This document shows, piece after piece, positions 3,492 to 64,000 of a stretch of DNA of 64,000 nt (positions within the stretch are counted from its first letter, which is position 1; each line of letters opens with the position of its first letter). The stretch spans positions 513,136-577,135 of the forward strand of contig NZ_KE136481.1 of assembly GCF_000407185.1 (NCBI RefSeq), given 5' to 3'. The DNA is from Enterococcus malodoratus ATCC 43197 (lineage in GTDB: Bacteria; Bacillota; Bacilli; Lactobacillales; Enterococcaceae). The notes below the pieces were generated by a model that was not told the DNA's origin, ran no database searches, and saw only the letters and a list, made by a program, of their open reading frames with translations. A program made the position numbers and the translations under genes.

Positions 3492-3548
3492 ATGACTCAA
3501 TTAATCTCTTTACAACTGAATAATTTTTACTTTAGCTATTTTAGATAG
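3492..3548 (+). CDS. 18-residue aromatic-rich leader peptide
   Basis: A short reading frame with a proper ribosome-binding site (GGAG, 8 nt before ATG). The peptide is MTQLISLQLNNFYFSYFR, and five of its last seven residues are Phe or Tyr (FYFSYFR). It is followed by three hairpins, the last a terminator, which is the layout of a ribosome-mediated attenuator. The clustered Phe/Tyr codons suggest stalling on low charged tRNA-Phe/Tyr. The alternative is a drug-stalled uORF: the N-terminus also resembles ABC-F/ABC ATPase starts, so a remnant of such a leader is possible. It is read here as a regulatory peptide, not an enzyme. Confidence 0.6.
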   Translation: MTQLISLQLNNFYFSYFR

Positions 3549-3563
3549 GTTTGTATTCATGCT

Positions 3564-3710
3564 TCGTGGATACAGACGTTCAAGTTTGTATCTATGATGG
3601 CTAAGGCTTTTCACGCTGACTTTTCGCCACGTAGATGAAAATCTATTGTGGCTTTATGTTTGTATTATTAAAGCTCATTGTAGATTTTCGAATCTATGAT
3701 GAGCTTTTTT
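3564..3710 (+). promoter_or_regulatory. tandem-hairpin attenuator
   Basis: There are three hairpins. A (3564-3597) has two 14-nt arms and a GTTCAA loop. B (3626-3652) has a GAAA loop and a one-base bulge. C (3671-3706) has a 16-bp stem, a TTCG loop and T6, so it is an intrinsic terminator. The 3' arms of A, B and C share ATCTAT-type cores and the 5' arms of B and C share GTAGAT, so the arms can swap partners. This is expected for terminator/antiterminator switching controlled by translation of the leader ORF at 3492-3548. No T-box motif was seen. Confidence 0.65.
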
Positions 3711-34797: not shown

Positions 34798-34856
34798 TTC
34801 AAAGATACAAATAAAGCGTCAGCAAAATAATCTTCCCAATCCAATTATTTTTAATC

Positions 34857-34994
34857 CCTGAACAAGGTATCCTGACTTTGCATCAACTTACTTTCTCGCC
34901 TTCCCTAAAAAGTGGCTTTCTGAGAGTTCATCCGCATATACAGTAGAAAGGGGCTGTTGAGGATTCTCACCTCAATTCCCTTGAACAGTTATTA
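34857..34994 (-). promoter_or_regulatory. cobalamin riboswitch
   Basis: On the - strand the aptamer contains AAGGGAAT, GTGAGAATCCTC, ACAGCCCC, GAAAGCCACT and GGGAAGGCG, then AGTCAGGATACC, the AdoCbl-box landmarks in the right order. The ends pair (CTGTTCAAGG with CCTTGTTCAG). It controls the whole cob operon. Confidence 0.93.
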
Positions 34995-35011
34995 GTTATT
35001 CGCTTTTCATC

Positions 35012-35040
35012 ATTATAGCAAACGTTTACAGTGAGACTTG
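35012..35040 (-). promoter_or_regulatory. promoter of the cobalamin operon with overlapping cre
   Basis: An extended -10, TGCTATAAT (TATAAT at 35012-35017), with a weak -35 CAAGTC (35035-35040). Between them is AGCAAACGTTTACA (35017-35030), which on the - strand reads TGTAAACGTTTGCT, one mismatch from the CcpA cre consensus. Confidence 0.7.
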
Positions 35041-35429
35041 ACCTTCGGCGGCAACACAGCCACATTGTGCTATTTTTGAAAGTGAGAGGACAAAATTTTA
35101 CTATTTTTTAAAGAGAACAGGCTTAAAATCACCTTTTTGACTTGATCTGAAATAGCTCATAAACAAGTAGTCAATCAAAATTGAACAGGTAAAGAAAAAT
35201 TGTTGGAAGTGTTGATGAAGGATAGCCAAATTTTGTTATTTTGGGAGAAAACAAAGCAAGATATTGTTATCAATTTCTTTTACGATCTTAAAATCATTGA
35301 TATATCAATCTTCTTCGTTCACTTAACTGATCTCCTCTTTATAGAAATCAACACATTTTGTTCACAAACACTCTTGTCTTTTTTTTTGAAAGAAAATAAG
35401 ATGGAGAAAACGACTACGAGGAGCGGACA
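35041..35429. other. intergenic region, no confident gene
   Basis: The ~390 bp between the divergent cob promoter and the permease gene hold an AT-rich stretch with a 77-codon frame (35200-35433) that has poor codon content. A 14-bp palindrome ATTGATATATCAAT lies at 35296-35309. No convincing promoter or RNA fold was assigned. Confidence 0.5.
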
Positions 35430-42249: not shown

Positions 42250-42267
42250 ACAAATTTCTTAACATTA

Positions 42268-42342
42268 CACATTCCCTGCGCCAGTCCTAACTGTTTCAGG
42301 TTCAATGGGTATAATCTCAGCTTCAAAAGCACCCCTAGTGTC
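42268..42342 (-). promoter_or_regulatory. TPP riboswitch (thi box)
   Basis: On the - strand: CTAGGGGTGC, GCTGAGATTATACCC, TTGAACCTGA, CTGGCGCAGGGAA, the standard thi-box landmarks. A -10-like TATACT (42357-42362) with extended TGC lies just upstream. Confidence 0.93.
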
Positions 42343-42407
42343 ATTCAATTGATAAAAGTATAGCATACCTATTTATAAAAAACGACTGCTATTTAACCGG
42401 TCGCCGA

Positions 42408-55977: not shown

Positions 55978-56008
55978 AAAAAAATCTCCTGCTGAATCAG
56001 CAGGAGAT
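55978..56008 (-). terminator. terminator overlapping the UvrA-like stop
   Basis: ATCTCCTGCTG-A-style perfect palindrome (55984-56008) followed by T7 on the - strand. The stop codon at 55997-55999 lies inside it. Confidence 0.85.
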
Positions 56009-58267
56009 GGAATGTTCGATTAATTCACTACTTTTTTTCAAATATTCACCAGTAATCGTTCCACTCTTCAACAAATCCTCGGGAACGCCGCTAAATACAA
56101 CTTCGCCGCCCTTCACACCGCCATCTGGTCCAATATCAATGACCCAATCAGCTTGCTTGATGATTTCGCTGTGGTGTTCGATGATAATCAAGGTATTCCC
56201 TTTTTCTACCATTCGTTGGAACAACGCGTTCAGCTTCTTGATATCTGACAGATGCAGTCCGGTGGTTGGCTCGTCCAAAACAAACACGGATTCATTCTGT
56301 GTGATCGCTTTAGTCAGCTTCAAGCGCTGACGTTCACCGCCCGAAAGAGTCGTCAATGTGCGGCCGATCGGTAAATAAGTTAGACCCGTATCGATCATCG
56401 CCTGCAGTTTCTCAATCATTTTTTTACTGCCGATCCCATGATAGAATTCCTGCAGCTCTTTAGGAGTTTTCGCCAATACCTCTAAAATTGTACATCCTTT
56501 CAGCTTGTAGCTGAGCGCTTCATCAGAGAAGCGTGTGCCGCCGCATGCCTCACACTCATTCACGATCGGGTCCATGAAGACCAGCTCGACAACGGTCTCC
56601 CCTTTTCCATGACAAACTGGACAGGCTCCTGTTGAGTTGAAACTGAACATGCCGACCGGAACTTGATTTGCTTTGCCGAAGGTACGTCGAATTTCGTCAT
56701 AGATCCCCAGATAAGTCGCTGGAGTTGCTCGATTCGTTGCCTTGATTGGTGCTTGATTGATGATGGAAATCTCGTTGGGGTACTGTTCTGGCAGGATTTT
56801 TGTGATTAAAGTCGATTTTCCTGAACCGGCCACGCCGGTAACTACTGTTAAGACATGTTTGGGAATGTCCACCGTCACATTTTTCAAATTGTGCAAGTTC
56901 GCTTCATTGATCGTCATTTTTTCTTGCCAACTACGGGGATGAGTATTGATTGGCAATGTCTGACAAATTTCTTTTCCTGTTAAGCTGTCTGACCGCAGCA
57001 AGGAAGGATAATCTCCGCGAAAGATGATCTCTCCGCCTTGTTTGCCCGCTAACGGACCAATGTCGATCACTTCATCCGCCACCGCAATCACATCTGGATC
57101 ATGTTCCACAACAAAAACAGTATTTTCTTTGTCTCGTAAATCTTGCAGCAGTCGATTGATTCGAGAAACATCGCGCGCATGCATCCCGGTACTAGGTTCA
57201 TCAAAAATATAAAACATTCCATTCAAGGCACTGCCCATATATTTCACTAATTTTACTCGCTGGGCCTCACCACCTGACAAGGTGGGAGTCTGCCGATCTA
57301 GCTGCAGGTAATCGAGCCCAATATCGATCAAGCGCTGAACTTGTCGCTTGATTTCACTGATCACCTCGTTCACTTCCGGATAATCTAAATCATTTAGAAA
57401 CTGAAGCAGTTCGTTCATATCCATTTCCACACAATCCGCAATCGAACGACCGTCGATTTTTACCGACAGCGCTTCTTTGTTCAAACGGCGCCCTTCACAA
57501 TCTGGACACGGTGCTTCAAACAATAATTCTTTTAATTTTTCTTCATACATTTTACTGTGACCAGACAAGTCGCGCTTCAAAATAATCCGTTCGTAGTTCC
57601 GACAAATCCCTTCAAGCTTCGGGTTGACTGGTGTAAGTGCTTGTTCTGGATGTCCATATACTAATTGATTCCATTGGGAAGTGGTCAATTCTTTAAGCGG
57701 TTGATCATTATCAAAGAAGTCCGCCGCTGCGTACTGTTTCCAATACCAATTTCCAACGGCATAGCGCGTGTCTAACACAGCTCCTTGATTCCAAGATTTT
57801 TCGCGGTCGATCAATTTGTCTACATTAATTTGATTGACCCGACCTAAACCAGAACACTTTTGACACATTCCTTGAGGATTGTTGAAAGAAAATTGACCGG
57901 CTGACCCAATCTGAGGCTGACCTACGCGTGAGTATAATAACCGTAATAAAGAATAGGTTTCGGTGATCGTTCCGACAGTTGAACGTTGATTTCCGCCTAG
58001 CGGAGTTTGATCGATCACAATTGCCGGATTCAAATTTTCAATCCGTTCCGCTTTCGGTTTGAGGAACTTAGGCATCCGATTCCTTACGAATGCGGAGTAG
58101 TTCGCATTCATTTGCCGCTGCGCTTCCGCCGCGATCGTGTCAAAGACCAAACTGGACTTTCCTGAACCTGACACGCCTGTAAACACAATCAGCTGGTTCT
58201 TTTCGATCTCTAATGAGAGATGCTGCAGATTGTTTTGTGTGAGACCGATTAATCTTAGTGGTTTCAT
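55997..58267 (-). CDS. short UvrA paralogue (excinuclease ABC subunit A-like ATPase)
   Basis: 756 residues, against about 940 for UvrA. It has two ABC modules: Walker A FTGVSGSGKSSLVF (about 30) and VTGVAGSGKSTLIT (about 475), signatures TLSGGEAQRVKL and TLSGGERQRLKL, and Walker B IFDEPSTGMHARD and VLDEPTTGLHLSD. It keeps zinc-type CxxC sets (CQKCSGLG, CPDCEGRR, CPVCHGKG, CEACGGTR). The missing length suits class II UvrA lacking the UvrB-binding region, often linked to drug tolerance or unknown roles. RBS AAGGGGGA. Confidence 0.88.
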   Translation of the reverse strand: MKPLRLIGLTQNNLQHLSLEIEKNQLIVFTGVSGSGKSSLVFDTIAAEAQRQMNANYSAFVRNRMPKFLKPKAERIENLNPAIVIDQTPLGGNQRSTVGTITETYSLLRLLYSRVGQPQIGSAGQFSFNNPQGMCQKCSGLGRVNQINVDKLIDREKSWNQGAVLDTRYAVGNWYWKQYAAADFFDNDQPLKELTTSQWNQLVYGHPEQALTPVNPKLEGICRNYERIILKRDLSGHSKMYEEKLKELLFEAPCPDCEGRRLNKEALSVKIDGRSIADCVEMDMNELLQFLNDLDYPEVNEVISEIKRQVQRLIDIGLDYLQLDRQTPTLSGGEAQRVKLVKYMGSALNGMFYIFDEPSTGMHARDVSRINRLLQDLRDKENTVFVVEHDPDVIAVADEVIDIGPLAGKQGGEIIFRGDYPSLLRSDSLTGKEICQTLPINTHPRSWQEKMTINEANLHNLKNVTVDIPKHVLTVVTGVAGSGKSTLITKILPEQYPNEISIINQAPIKATNRATPATYLGIYDEIRRTFGKANQVPVGMFSFNSTGACPVCHGKGETVVELVFMDPIVNECEACGGTRFSDEALSYKLKGCTILEVLAKTPKELQEFYHGIGSKKMIEKLQAMIDTGLTYLPIGRTLTTLSGGERQRLKLTKAITQNESVFVLDEPTTGLHLSDIKKLNALFQRMVEKGNTLIIIEHHSEIIKQADWVIDIGPDGGVKGGEVVFSGVPEDLLKSGTITGEYLKKSSELIEHSISC

Positions 58268-58894: not shown

Positions 58895-58932
58895 AAGAAA
58901 CCGGCCCATTGGATAAGCCGGTTTCTTTTTAT
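58895..58932. terminator. bidirectional terminator
   Basis: AAGAAACCGGC / GCCGGTTTCTT arms with an 11-nt loop and T-rich flanks, ending both the membrane-protein gene and grdD. Confidence 0.85.
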
Positions 58933-60086
58933 AAATATTTGGCTGTTTTCAATTCTGCTTGTGCAGCTGCTAAATTCTTCTCATTGACTAATACAATCGG
59001 TCCTGTACAGCCCATTCCGCTTTCAGCATAAATATCTGCTTCCCACAAAACTTTGACCGCATCCTCCAGCTCCATGATCTCGATTCCAGCAATCTCGCTA
59101 GTGACAATTTCCTTTGGTGGCGGCTCGATCTCTTTGACTTCTGTCGTTGGCACTGCGCTCAACTCCAGACAAATTGGCTTCAAACCCGCTTGATCTGCTT
59201 TTTGATATTCAGTCTGACTGATTTTTCCAAGTTTCCCCTTCGCGAGTTCATACGCATATTCCAACGCATTAGTAATCACTGGTGCACCACTAGCACGAGA
59301 AATAATGCAGATGTTGCGTTCATAATTCCGACCGAGCCCTGGCCCATAGCCCGCACCGACAGTCTCATAATTTCCGCCGCTCGAATAGGCTGAGAAAAGC
59401 TTCATCAAAAGATTGCCTGTTAGACTATCACAGACCACGACATCGACGCTGCCTAAAGGTAAATCGTTGCCGCGTAGAACTTTGCCGCCGTCCTCCCGTT
59501 GACTTTCACCAAAAACAAGCTCATACCCGTTTTCTTGCAAAGTAGTCAACGAACGTTCAACCGTTTTTGCACCTTCAATATTCAAAATACCGATTGTCGG
59601 TTGCTGGATACCGCAGGCCTTCGCAGCAGCGATACCATTAATAGCATTCAGCACCATCGCTTCATTTCGAATACCGCTAGTTGTCCCAGTTGTAGTTGCA
59701 ATAAAAAGCTCACGTCCCAATGCAGGTGTCACTACCTTGCCAACCGTGGAAACGCCGATCGGGAAGTTATAATGCAGCGTCACACAGCCTTGCAGTTCGC
59801 CGCTGTCCAACAGCTCTTCCATCAGCTCAGCAGAATCCTTCTGACAATCAGTCGTTGAATAATGATCAAAATCGGTTACCCAGTCGACGTCCTTTCCAAT
59901 TAAAACCAAATCAAATAGGTTCTTTTGTTTAATTGCATAGGCTGCTTGTTTCATGACTTCTGTGCCTAATTCACTGCCGTCAATGGTCAAACCGATCTTG
60001 ATTCTTGATTCCATTCGTCCCGTTTCTAAACTAGTCGCCAAATCTTCAAAAACCTTTTTTACCGTTTGTTTTACTTGATCAGACAT
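58929..60086 (-). CDS. grdD: glycine reductase complex C subunit alpha GrdD
   Basis: 385 residues. It resembles PlsX/phosphotransacetylase-type proteins, with TIGILNIEGAKTVERSL near 165 and DVVVCDSLTGNLLMKLFSAYSSGG near 210, and a C-terminal GMGCTGPIVLV motif (Cys about 363), a conserved Cys near the GrdD C-terminus. With GrdC it takes the Se-carboxymethyl group from GrdA and makes acetyl phosphate. It is the last gene of the grd operon, 10 bp after grdC. Confidence 0.92.
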   Translation of the reverse strand: MSDQVKQTVKKVFEDLATSLETGRMESRIKIGLTIDGSELGTEVMKQAAYAIKQKNLFDLVLIGKDVDWVTDFDHYSTTDCQKDSAELMEELLDSGELQGCVTLHYNFPIGVSTVGKVVTPALGRELFIATTTGTTSGIRNEAMVLNAINGIAAAKACGIQQPTIGILNIEGAKTVERSLTTLQENGYELVFGESQREDGGKVLRGNDLPLGSVDVVVCDSLTGNLLMKLFSAYSSGGNYETVGAGYGPGLGRNYERNICIISRASGAPVITNALEYAYELAKGKLGKISQTEYQKADQAGLKPICLELSAVPTTEVKEIEPPPKEIVTSEIAGIEIMELEDAVKVLWEADIYAESGMGCTGPIVLVNEKNLAAAQAELKTAKYL

Positions 60087-60096
60087 AGCTCCACCT

Positions 60097-61638
60097 CTAT
60101 TCTGCTGAAAGATTGGCAGCGAAACTTCTCAATGCCTGCGCAACTTCTCGCTTCACCAGCTCTTCTAAATCTTGCTGATTCTCATCTGCAACCTTGCCGT
60201 TGTTGCGCTCCATCAAAATCGACACACCATCAAACAAGTTGGTCATCCGCCCTAAGAAAAGTGAACCTTTCCCAACGATCATCGCGCGATTTTTGTCGCC
60301 GCTGACTAAGTCTTCTGCCGCAAAACCTAAATACGGAATGCCGCTCGGAATATGACCCTGGGTTGGTGCCCAACCGACAAGCGCCTTTTCATTAACAAAA
60401 GCCATCAGATCTTTTTTCTCGATATCCTTACGTAATACTCCGATCGCCCCGATCATTTTCAGATTGGCCAACGGTACATCGCCGGCACCAGCTGGTTTAG
60501 TGATATCGGGATTTTGCATTTCGACAGAATAGACATCCACATCTTTGATCGTTAATTGGGCTTTTTCTAAAATACTTCCGATCAACGCAGTGGTGACTGC
60601 TTGCGGGCTCGATCCGCTGCCAACTTCATGTTTACCAGTCAAATCATGGCGTAAAATTGGACTTACTCCATCATTTTCACTGATCAAGGCCGCAAAACCG
60701 CCCAAAACATCTTCTAAAATCGGCAACCCCTTACCGACATGGGATTTACCGTTCATACCTAATTTAGCGGTTGCCCCGCCTGCTACAAGTACGACATTTT
60801 TGTGAGTACCTGCTGCTACTAATGAAGCCGCAGTGATCAACGCATGAGTCGGTCCGGCACAGAAACTGCGAATGTCTGAACCAGTCGCGTGTTCGCATCC
60901 GCATAATTCAGCGATGGACTTGGCAAAATTTCCGCCGCCCCGCTGATTCATATCTCCGCAAGCTTCCTCACTGCATTCAATTACGTAATCAATCTCTTTT
61001 GGGTCAAGCTGGTGTTTAGCGATTAATTGCCGTAACGCTAAGACTCCGCTAGCCTTCACCACTAGATTTTCCAGCATCACATGCGCATTCAAATTCACGT
61101 CGATTTGATGTGCTGGGCTCACACCGCCAACTAGCTGGCGGTCATAATACAGACCTTCTGCATGATTTTCGGCCAGATCCTTTTCGATCCAGGCTAACGG
61201 TTTGCCCGCTTTGATTTTTTCCACGTCATCCTTGAACAAAGGATGGTTGCTTAACGCCTCGCGAACTTTTGCCGCAAAACTTTCTTCCAGATGAACCAGT
61301 TCAAACACATCAACAATCTGCAACAAACCGTAAAATTCCAATTCCGGCATGATCTCGCCGAATTTGCCTTCACGTTTACCTTCGATTGATTGATTGACCC
61401 ACGGTTGTGGAATTTCTTTTAATTCATGATAGTCCATGTTTCCAATAAAAGTCTGATTAGGCGCATAATTGACTACTTCCTCAAAGCTGCGCAGGTTATC
61501 GTACAGATTCGCCAAATATGGACTATCTGGTGTCGTGATCTTTTCAGTTGTTTGGGTCGTGCCATTATGTTCGATCATATCTGGTGTATGAACTAAAACA
61601 TAGCTCGCCCCGCGTAAAGTCGAATAGTTCATGGGCAT
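60097..61638 (-). CDS. grdC: glycine reductase complex C subunit beta GrdC
   Basis: 513 residues with a thiolase-like fold: LRGASYVLVHTPDMIEHNGTT at the start, YVIECSEEACGDMNQRGGGNFAKSIAEL (about 215) and GSDIRSFCAGPTHALITAASL (about 255-275), with VLVAGGATAKLGMNGK following. These match GrdC, which with GrdD forms the acetyl-phosphate-producing complex C. It lies 5 bp after trxA, so the unit is translationally tight. Confidence 0.94.
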   Translation of the reverse strand: MPMNYSTLRGASYVLVHTPDMIEHNGTTQTTEKITTPDSPYLANLYDNLRSFEEVVNYAPNQTFIGNMDYHELKEIPQPWVNQSIEGKREGKFGEIMPELEFYGLLQIVDVFELVHLEESFAAKVREALSNHPLFKDDVEKIKAGKPLAWIEKDLAENHAEGLYYDRQLVGGVSPAHQIDVNLNAHVMLENLVVKASGVLALRQLIAKHQLDPKEIDYVIECSEEACGDMNQRGGGNFAKSIAELCGCEHATGSDIRSFCAGPTHALITAASLVAAGTHKNVVLVAGGATAKLGMNGKSHVGKGLPILEDVLGGFAALISENDGVSPILRHDLTGKHEVGSGSSPQAVTTALIGSILEKAQLTIKDVDVYSVEMQNPDITKPAGAGDVPLANLKMIGAIGVLRKDIEKKDLMAFVNEKALVGWAPTQGHIPSGIPYLGFAAEDLVSGDKNRAMIVGKGSLFLGRMTNLFDGVSILMERNNGKVADENQQDLEELVKREVAQALRSFAANLSAE

Positions 61639-61643
61639 TCTCC

Positions 61644-61967
61644 CTAAATGTATTTCTGAATCATTTCTTCAATGGATTCTTTGGTACAGTCATCTTTCGC
61701 TACTTCGTCAACTTTTTCACCATTTTGGTAAATTGAGATAACCGGTAATCCTAGTATTTTATGCTGAATACAGAAGCGGCGTACTTTTTTCTGTGATGTG
61801 TTGAACTTCGTAAAACGGATTTTATCGCCATATTGTGCATATAGTTCTTCCACATCAGGCATCAAAGCCAAACAATTTTCACAGGTTTCTCCCCACCAGT
61901 CTACTAAGACTGGTTTGGCTTGCTCTGTAACTTCGGCAGCAAAATTATCAACAGTTAATTCAATCAT
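61644..61967 (-). CDS. trxA: thioredoxin (glycine-reductase type)
   Basis: 107 residues, thioredoxin fold. The active site is ETCENC instead of WCGPC, with WWGETCENCLALMPDVEEL near residue 28. Departures from CGPC are a known feature of thioredoxins serving glycine reductase. It would pass electrons from TrxB to GrdA/GrdB. It overlaps trxB by 4 nt. Confidence 0.93.
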   Translation of the reverse strand: MIELTVDNFAAEVTEQAKPVLVDWWGETCENCLALMPDVEELYAQYGDKIRFTKFNTSQKKVRRFCIQHKILGLPVISIYQNGEKVDEVAKDDCTKESIEEMIQKYI

Positions 61968-62932
61968 GTTGTTGGTACCTCCCTTTTGATTTTCTCCACA
62001 TATTTTTGTGCTGAGAACGCGGCAATTGCCCCGTCACCAGTAGCTGTAACGACCTGACGCAGCACTTTTGGCCGCATATCTCCTGCCGCAAAAACACCGG
62101 GAATTTGCGTGCACATCGCTTCATCAGTAATTATATAGCCGTAATCATTCAATGGAATTTTTCCTTGGTAAAGTTGCGTACTCGGTACATTGCCGATAAA
62201 GACAAAGATCCCAAATAGCCCATCGTCTTCATCCGCTTCAAAACGGGTTAATTCATCTGTCTCTGTATTACGGATAGTCATCGCCTCTACCATGCCGTCG
62301 CCTTCGATACTTTCCACGACTGAATCAAAAATATACTCGATCTTGTCATTGGCTTTCGCTTGCTCAACCGCAATCGCATCAGCGGTCAGATCGCTCAAGT
62401 TTTGAATGATCGTTACTTTACGTGCAAAGGTCGTAATGAACATCGCTTCCTCGACCGCTGAATTTCCGCCGCCGATTACAAATACTTCCATATCTTCAAA
62501 AAAGGCACCGTCGCATGTCGCACAATAAGAAACACCTTTTCCTGCCAGCTCACGTTCCCCAGTACAACCGATCTCTCTTGGAAATGCACCATTGGCACAA
62601 ATCACCGCATGGGATTCGAAAACGCTACCATCTTTACACGTTATTTTTTTGACCGTTCCTTCTAATTCCAAATCGGTAACTTCTTTACGTAATTGAATCT
62701 CCGCACCAAACTGCTGGGCCTGATCCGCCATTCGTTTGATCAATTCCGGACCAGAGGTTTCTTCTTCGCTCATCTTGATCGATCCTGGAAAATTAGCGAT
62801 TTCATGTGTGGAAACAATTTGTCCGCCTAATTTTGTTTTTTCTAAGAGCAACACCTTCAACCGTGCTCTTGCATTGTATAGAGCTGCCGTTAAGCCGGCT
62901 GGCCCGCCGCCGATAATAATCACATCGTACAT
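61964..62932 (-). CDS. trxB: thioredoxin reductase
   Basis: 322 residues from ATG 62932 (MYDVIIIGGGPAGLTAA), preceded by GGGAGGAG at 9 nt; the longer frame has an upstream extension without RBS. The redox-active CATC motif lies at about 134 (SYCATCDGAFF), with VIGGGNSAVEEAMF for NADPH and a C-terminal VFAAGDMRPKVLRQ FAD motif. It keeps the thioredoxin above reduced. The grd context makes it part of the glycine reductase electron path. Confidence 0.94.
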   Translation of the reverse strand: MYDVIIIGGGPAGLTAALYNARARLKVLLLEKTKLGGQIVSTHEIANFPGSIKMSEEETSGPELIKRMADQAQQFGAEIQLRKEVTDLELEGTVKKITCKDGSVFESHAVICANGAFPREIGCTGERELAGKGVSYCATCDGAFFEDMEVFVIGGGNSAVEEAMFITTFARKVTIIQNLSDLTADAIAVEQAKANDKIEYIFDSVVESIEGDGMVEAMTIRNTETDELTRFEADEDDGLFGIFVFIGNVPSTQLYQGKIPLNDYGYIITDEAMCTQIPGVFAAGDMRPKVLRQVVTATGDGAIAAFSAQKYVEKIKREVPTT

Positions 62933-63016
62933 ATCCTTAAGCTCCTCCCATAAATAAGAAAATACTTTTTTCCGTTCTAAGTTGCCTGAATGAACACTCA
63001 CTCAGGCAACCATCAA

Positions 63017-64000
63017 TTATTCAAATACGGTTTGTTCGTCCACTGGAGTCGTCATTGCCTTCAACGCATTTTCAACAATCCCGCGACGAAGTTTTTTCTC
63101 TTCCTTCAAGCTTAGGTTTGGATTTCCTAGTGGATGAGGAATCGCAATAGCTGGGACGATTCGATTGGCTCCAACTGTTTGCGAAATTGGAACTACTGTA
63201 CAGATATGAACTACAGGTAGACCGGTTTTCTCAATTTCTTTTACCATCGTTGCACCGCAACGAGTACAGGTTCCTCAGGTGGATGTCAAAATGACAGCAT
63301 CGACACCATCTGCTAGTAATTTTTGAGCGATTTCGGCCGCGTATTTCTTGGCATTCGCAACAGCCGTTCCATTTCCGACTGTTGTGTAGAAATAATTGTG
63401 CAGGCTGCCGATCAGCCCTTCTTGTTCCATCTCTCTCACTATATCTAATGGCAATACTCGGTTTGGATCTTGGTTTGCATAAACAGGGTCATACCCACCG
63501 TGAGCCGTTTCATAAGAATCCGCAGACAAAGTATCAATATTCTCGATTGAATACGTTCCATACTTTGAAGCACTGCTGGATTCGATACGATCTGGATTGC
63601 CTTTAGGAACAATTCCACCAGAAGTCACAAGCGCAATTCTCGCTTTAGATAGATCACTTATCGCTGTGGCTGGCGCGACGTTATCAAATTCAGGCATAGG
63701 AAATTCGGTCGTAAATTCTTGGTCATTCACTTTCTTAACCAGCATCTCCACGGCTCGTGCTGAACCGCGTTTTTCATCCTGAAAATTTTTCCGATAACGA
63801 ACAAAGTAGTTATCTGCTTCTGGTGAAACCTGTTCCTTTCTCAACAATTTCAACGCGAGATTTGCAATCACAGGCACTGCTTTTCTCATACCTGCCGCGC
63901 TATTTCTAGTCGGCACGATATAGGCACCCTTTTTGTACATTTCTACTCCAGGGTTTTCTTCGTACATCCCGGTCACAGCCGGAATGCCAAGCTCAGTCAT
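63017..64000 (-). CDS. grdB: glycine reductase selenoprotein GrdB (5' truncated by window edge)
   Basis: Two frames, 63275-64000 and 63017-63274, are one gene read through a TGA at 63275-63277. Translation around it gives LTST-U-GTCTRCGATMVKEI, with Sec at the UxxCxxC position of GrdB; the window holds about 327 codons. The first about 110 residues of a typical 436-residue GrdB lie beyond base 64000; the Met at the edge is internal. The YETAHGGYDPVYAN and YFYTTVGNGTAV segments match the glycine enzyme better than the sarcosine (GrdF) or betaine (GrdH) forms, but specificity stays open. It binds glycine as a Schiff base with the help of GrdE. Confidence 0.93.
63241..63277 (-). promoter_or_regulatory. 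bSECIS element of grdB with Sec codon
   Basis: On the - strand the UGA (63275-63277) is followed by TCGTTGC-GGT-GCAACGA (63247-63263): a perfect 7-bp stem with a GGT loop whose G lies 19 nt after the UGA. ACC (63269-63271) and GGT (63243-63245) can extend the stem across an internal loop. Spacing and loop G match bacterial SECIS elements bound by SelB. Confidence 0.85.

Follow-up and report, generated by a model that had tools for sequence, protein, structure and literature searches.

The window analysed here is a stretch of 64,000 nucleotides of Enterococcus malodoratus ATCC 43197, corresponding to C1:513136-577135 of a 4.62-Mb genome in five contigs. At its edge it carries part of a minus-strand grd operon, which is complete on contig C1 and comprises, in this order, a glycine riboswitch (57.1 bits, L017:9825-9720), grdX (128.8 bits, cut-off 40), a grdE-like gene, grdA, grdB, trxB, trxA, grdC and grdD. 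The last 328 codons of grdB, including the stop codon, occupy 63017..64000; 318 further bases lie beyond the window edge, and in the 20 kb surrounding the gene (L017) the 5' end is found at L017:7318, giving a complete product of 433 residues, of which residue 348 alone is specified by UGA. The grdA gene, for which the initial annotation had suggested a search, is located immediately upstream of grdB and contains a UGA of its own within ECFV-U-TAAGAM (261.7 bits, cut-off 130). For the grdE-like component B subunit the best curated match is GrdG (659.7, below the cut-off of 780), and the name grdE thus rests on operon position.

Downstream of grdB follow trxB (61964..63001, minus strand), whose thioredoxin reductase-like product scores just below the cut-off of TIGR01292 (330.8 versus 343.45 bits) and whose true start is probably an ATG within the GTG-started reading frame, and trxA (61644..61967, minus strand), encoding a clostridial-type thioredoxin (NF047697, 154.9 bits, cut-off 140). 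The operon ends with the genes for the component C subunits beta and alpha, grdC (60097..61638, minus strand; NF040746, 786.9 bits, cut-off 450) and grdD (58929..60086, minus strand; NF040747, 555.9 bits, cut-off 350), so that grdA, grdC, grdD and trxA all exceed their curated cut-offs as partners of grdB. Beyond the operon, an opposite-strand ORF of 148 aa stands before a 756-aa ORF (55997-58267, minus strand) that resembles UvrA-type ATPases by eye. Elsewhere in the window, matches above the gathering score were obtained for a cobalamin riboswitch (34847-35041, minus strand), a TPP riboswitch (42255-42346, minus strand) and the Enterococcus sRNA_2410 (3532-3692, plus strand).

The identity of grdB is defined by the curated model TIGR01917, which is matched from residue 5 to 433 of 433 with 680.8 bits (cut-off 602.2) and to whose end the part downstream of the UGA aligns. 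The related sarcosine reductase GrdF (NF040794, 688.8 bits, cut-off 800) and betaine reductase GrdH (NF040795, 549.6 bits, cut-off 775) were rejected as assignments. As initially described, the two minus-strand frames 63275-64000 (241 aa as far as the window reaches) and 63017-63247 (76 aa counted from the first ATG) are joined solely across the TGA at 63277-63275, and the protein around it reads TST-U-GTCTRCG, which includes a UxxC motif. The site was compared among 101 loci (L030-L050 and L060-L139; L051-L059, which are short or PrdB-like matches, were left out), three of which were dropped, namely L045 and L046, which end short of the site, and the PrdB-like L047, which also has TGA. In all of the remaining 98 GrdB/GrdH-type loci, among them the copy from the window itself and duplicate entries for some species, the site is occupied by TGA, a count that covers the best 80 of 320 relatives and is therefore silent on distant ones. 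The motif TSTUGTC is common to these loci, no second stop interrupts the aligned frame in any of them, and neither a tryptophan codon nor the cysteine codon that would have contradicted the initial annotation was encountered in any of the 98. The UGA of grdB is hence very probably read as selenocysteine (Sec), and gene finders that halt at UGA cut GrdB-like selenoproteins short.

The 38 nucleotides following the UGA (63237..63274, minus strand) match the Rfam family SECIS_4 (RF01990) over 38 of 38 model positions with 65.3 bits (gathering score 38, E 2.5e-13), even though this match may not be independent, since the model was perhaps built from such grdB genes. Within this element lies a hairpin (63247..63263, minus strand), TCGTTGC-GGT-GCAACGA, which begins 11 nt past the TGA, has a 7-bp stem and a GGU loop at 63256-63254, and is present in the predicted fold. 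Its folding energy by itself is not significant, neither for 53 nt (z -1.24; 17 of 200 shuffles equally good) nor for 50 nt (z -1.05; 32 of 200), and was rejected as proof of the structure; conservation was used as evidence instead. Among the 74 distinct 45-mers contained in the 98 loci, the pairs 17-29, 19-27, 20-26 and 21-25 (counting UGA as 1-3) are invariant, while pair 18-28 differs in one sequence, that of a distant relative (L113, Carboxydothermus), where both sides have changed in a compensatory manner from U-A to C-G. The sixth pair, 16-30, is kept in 55 of the 74 sequences, the outermost pair, 15-31, in 27, and all seven in 25. Thus the hairpin of the initial annotation, with its seven pairs, GGT loop and spacing, exists in this gene as described and reappears on folding, but the stem that is conserved across relatives amounts to five or six pairs, the inner five forming the family core.

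Counts of paired cells are weak evidence alone, as moving the 3' arm by +3 still leaves 389 of 518 cells paired compared with 452 of 518 in the unslid alignment, and the wobble positions of the stem codons provide the better test. At these paired wobbles CGT is found in 73 of 74 sequences and TGC and GCA in all 74, whereas the codon frequencies pooled over these genes are 0.43 for CGT (of CGN), 0.44 for TGC and 0.31 for GCA. Moreover, when the 63 testable grdB codons are ranked by synonymous constraint (81 loci), the top five (+2, +5, +6, +8 and +9) all fall inside or beside the hairpin, and the mean KL value reaches 0.80 bits at codons +1 to +10 versus 0.11 elsewhere (81 loci). In the sequences compared, the wobble positions of the hairpin are frozen although synonymous change would be possible; since these sequences are related, the frozen codons do not represent independent events.

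The genes required for selenocysteine decoding, which the initial annotation had predicted to lie outside the window, are indeed all present in the genome, and all of them reside on contig C2: selA (C2:6-1343, 580.4 bits), selB (C2:1184960-1186822, 360.2 bits), selD (C2:1182920-1183831, 370.9 bits) and the gene for tRNA-Sec with the anticodon tca (UCA) (selC; C2:11836-11928, 68.2 bits). The joint absence of selB and tRNA-Sec, named at the outset as an observation that would overturn the reading, is therefore not what the genome displays. The sel cluster (L018:7591-11000) additionally holds an ORF of 118 aa, designated DUF3343 in the annotation of E. gilvus, and a class V aminotransferase gene scoring 371.3 bits with TIGR01977 (cut-off 377) and 285.6 with the selenocysteine lyase SclA (cut-off 525); it is possible that both encode selenium-delivery proteins.

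Further genes with in-frame UGA codons were recovered on C2 from the stretches fetched there, rather than by a genome-wide selenoprotein search: a second grdA (270.4 bits, cut-off 130), the betaine reductase gene grdH (803.3 bits, cut-off 775) and the proline reductase gene prdB (402.7 bits, cut-off 300). As in grdB, a SECIS element is found in grdH (SECIS_4, 46 bits). On the contrary, no SECIS was detected for prdB or for either copy of grdA (L017:7678-7629, minus strand; L142:2293-2342, plus strand), the C1 copy of the latter lacking any Rfam SECIS match up to E 1. The folding energies of the two grdA copies correspond to z values of +1.08 and +1.22, and in the 48 nt after the UGA every wobble position except for a Met codon varies among 67 distinct sequences, so that with Rfam, folding and wobble conservation all negative a grdA SECIS was rejected. 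The grdA site itself is uniform, as 73 sites found in 72 of the 82 loci searched all have TGA; one of these loci, L075 of Vagococcus fluvialis, contains two sites that share identical sequence over the 60 nt surrounding the UGA. Synonymous constraint near the grdA UGA is weak (0.29 bits versus 0.17 elsewhere, 69 loci) when set against that of grdB, and among the 44 grdA codons open to testing, constraint is highest at -1 (GTC) and +2 (GCC). PMC1242214 depicts hairpins for Photobacterium grdA. The contrast between grdA and grdB turns the recognition of grdA by SelB into a testable question.

Within the genus, selA exceeds its cut-off in 19 of 20 sampled Enterococcus genomes, this one included, the exception being a genome that is 78% complete; a grdB-type gene of 75-100% identity occurs in 13 of the 20, and a full-length GrdB- or GrdH-type gene in 15, all of which possess selA. 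Given selA here and in 18 of 19 sampled congeners, a group of gut and clinical enterococci can be expected to run selenium-dependent Stickland fermentations resembling those of clostridia. Among 395 sampled genomes of Lactobacillales, selA is over the cut-off in 42, including one with an internal stop (G385), and full-length GrdB-family matches (>470 bits) occur in 27, all of them among the 42 selA genomes, as counted by eye from the match listings. In the genome with the interrupted selA, a member of the same family but of another genus, the gene appears as two matches with stop codons (G385:C2:2281122-2282467) while a PrdB-like match remains, and its selenocysteine system may be decaying. 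In addition, GrdB-like matches of about 175 aa that comprise the N-terminal half only were observed (G019:C2:256178, G146:C11:131177 and others), and several short matches of this kind belong to genomes without selA over the cut-off; these short matches perhaps represent the NF041545 family, 'GrdB_like_no_Se'.

A tree built from 81 GrdB and 3 GrdH rows (84 in total) unites the 25 GrdB proteins of Lactobacillales in one clade (100/97), with 6 from Aerococcaceae and 19 from Enterococcus, Vagococcus and Loigolactobacillus, that adjoins Acidaminobacter within Clostridia and Tissierellia. The 11 rows from the E. avium group are held together as a clade with support of 100/100, the nearest relative of the window's GrdB is that of E. 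raffinosus DSM 5633 (98/89), in keeping with the Enterococcus-like host initially surmised from the letters, and the protein of Loigolactobacillus rennini falls beside one from an Enterococcus (100/89). The simplest reading of this topology would be a single old transfer from a clostridial donor, followed by losses and some sideways movement. A recent import or an assembly contamination, with grdB and sel genes that the organism does not use, would agree with the nesting of the clade in Clostridia as well as with the G+C content of the operon stretch (0.438 versus 0.397 for the window), yet it is improbable in view of the occurrence of selA and grdB-type genes in most sampled genomes of the genus and of the supported E. 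avium-group clade, from which it follows that any import must be old and has been kept intact.

Two further explanations concern the UGA itself and are less probable still. The codon might be a true stop, leaving a broken gene or one that makes two separate proteins, given that the standard code ends the frame there and that an ATG occurs 27 bases into the downstream part. This is scarcely credible for a codon that is TGA at every compared locus with no other stop in the aligned frame, is followed by sequence that aligns with the curated model right to its end and by a hairpin under synonymous constraint, and belongs to a family whose full-length genes are accompanied by selA in all 27 genomes. 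Low-level read-through of UGA occurs in many bacteria, and near-cognate suppression could place Trp or Cys at the site without selenium, but a tRNA-Sec with UCA anticodon next to all sel genes, the frozen SECIS stem and the lack of Cys or Trp codons at the compared loci leave this notion equally remote.

Decoding of the grdB UGA as selenocysteine would connect two parts of the genome, as grdA and grdB of the operon lie on C1 and all four sel genes on C2. Production of GrdA and GrdB would consequently need C2, a contig of 1,188,036 bases (1.19 Mb). When its end is joined to its start, the open selA frame grows from 450 codons on the linear contig to 463, and an ATG then precedes the junction; this fits a circular molecule cut inside selA. 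An overlap of the contig ends was rejected as proof of a circle because no exact overlap longer than 15 bases exists. A 16S rRNA match is absent from C2, the seven matches of the genome being located on C1, C3 and C4. C2 is thus probably a circular second replicon or megaplasmid.

The selA contigs of three congeners (G007, G002 and G012) measure 0.93, 1.31 and 1.41 Mb and lack a 16S match, which is weak evidence because these genomes are in 5, 10 and 10 contigs, respectively; the genomes left out of this placement of selA include five of 2.5-2.9 Mb that have the gene (G008, G014, G017, G018 and G019). A comparison of GrdB with a collection that includes Enterococcus plasmids but not the chromosomes of their host species retrieved six such plasmids with at most 48% identity, representing grdH or prdB; in the species concerned, grdB of the window type therefore presumably lies on the chromosome. 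Elsewhere in the Lactobacillales, four genomes that consist of a single contig (G066, G181, G212 and G226) have selA together with a full-length GrdB gene on it, and the split consequently appears characteristic of the E. avium group. It is considered rather likely, with some reservation, that in this group all Sec genes reside on a second replicon of about 0.9-1.4 Mb while the UGA genes of glycine fermentation are chromosomal, and that the UGA of grdA is read by the same SelB without a recognisable downstream hairpin, i.e., by a signal differing from that of grdB. If so, cells that lost the megaplasmid would make shortened versions of chromosomally encoded proteins, an effect that would contribute to retention of the replicon, and the split offers a direct test of whether a megaplasmid can be maintained through the dependence of the chromosome on the 21st amino acid that it provides.

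Taken together, grdB very probably encodes the selenocysteine-containing subunit of glycine reductase component B, its UGA being decoded via SECIS, SelB and Sec-tRNA, as judged from genomic data. SelA would form selenocysteine on tRNA-Sec using selenophosphate supplied by SelD, and SelB in complex with GTP and Sec-tRNA(UCA) would bind the GGU-loop hairpin downstream of the UGA and decode the latter as selenocysteine. The catalytic scheme of glycine reductase is established for the family. Following this scheme, glycine would be activated by GrdB together with GrdE, the two-carbon unit would be carried off by GrdA on its own selenocysteine, GrdC/GrdD would release acetyl phosphate and subsequently yield ATP, and TrxA/TrxB would re-reduce GrdA. 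The glycine riboswitch probably controls the operon.

The operon shares its components, two UGA-containing selenoprotein genes and the curated-model matches with the clostridial grd operon, and its SECIS element displays no notable difference from Rfam SECIS_4, whereas the host is an Enterococcus and the sel genes are found on another contig, probably a megaplasmid. From its sequence, the E. avium group thus appears to possess a selenium-dependent glycine reductase of the clostridial type, a familiar enzyme family in a host that has been under-appreciated. The closest counterparts of the sel region are found on plasmids of E. gilvus (pCR1A, 919 kb) and E. raffinosus (pCX012922, 985 kb), each complete and circular, both of which feature the order selD-yedF-DUF3343-selB-aminotransferase-selA with tRNA-Sec beyond; nucleotide identity between their sel region and that of the present genome is about 77-79%. 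prdB is present on both and grdH on pCR1A, but where GrdB matched Enterococcus plasmids, six in all, the gene was grdH or prdB and not this grdB. The NCBI annotation of these two plasmids already names selA, selB and selD, along with prdB and, on pCR1A, grdH, and such genes are accordingly already in the databases, while the main text of two papers on E. raffinosus megaplasmids contains no word starting with 'selen'. Among the matches listed, no publication was identified that deals with selenocysteine in Vagococcus or the E. avium group, and PMC8894896 names grdB, selA and selB in Enterococcus durans, with a selenoprotein list obtained by SECIS predictor and BLAST. In their passages on this genus, the surveys PMC1794560 and PMC4561486 describe Enterococcus with SelD and without other selenium markers, the latter extending this description to many Enterococcus species. 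The orphan-SelD trait of E. faecalis (PMC1794560, PMC2432076 and PMC4561486) resembles the present case in being an Enterococcus with selD, and differs in that SelD is here accompanied by SelA, SelB, tRNA-Sec and UGA genes, which constitutes the selenocysteine trait proper. The most interesting points are hence the location of the UGA genes on C1 as opposed to that of the machinery on C2, and the contrast with the surveys that report SelD alone.
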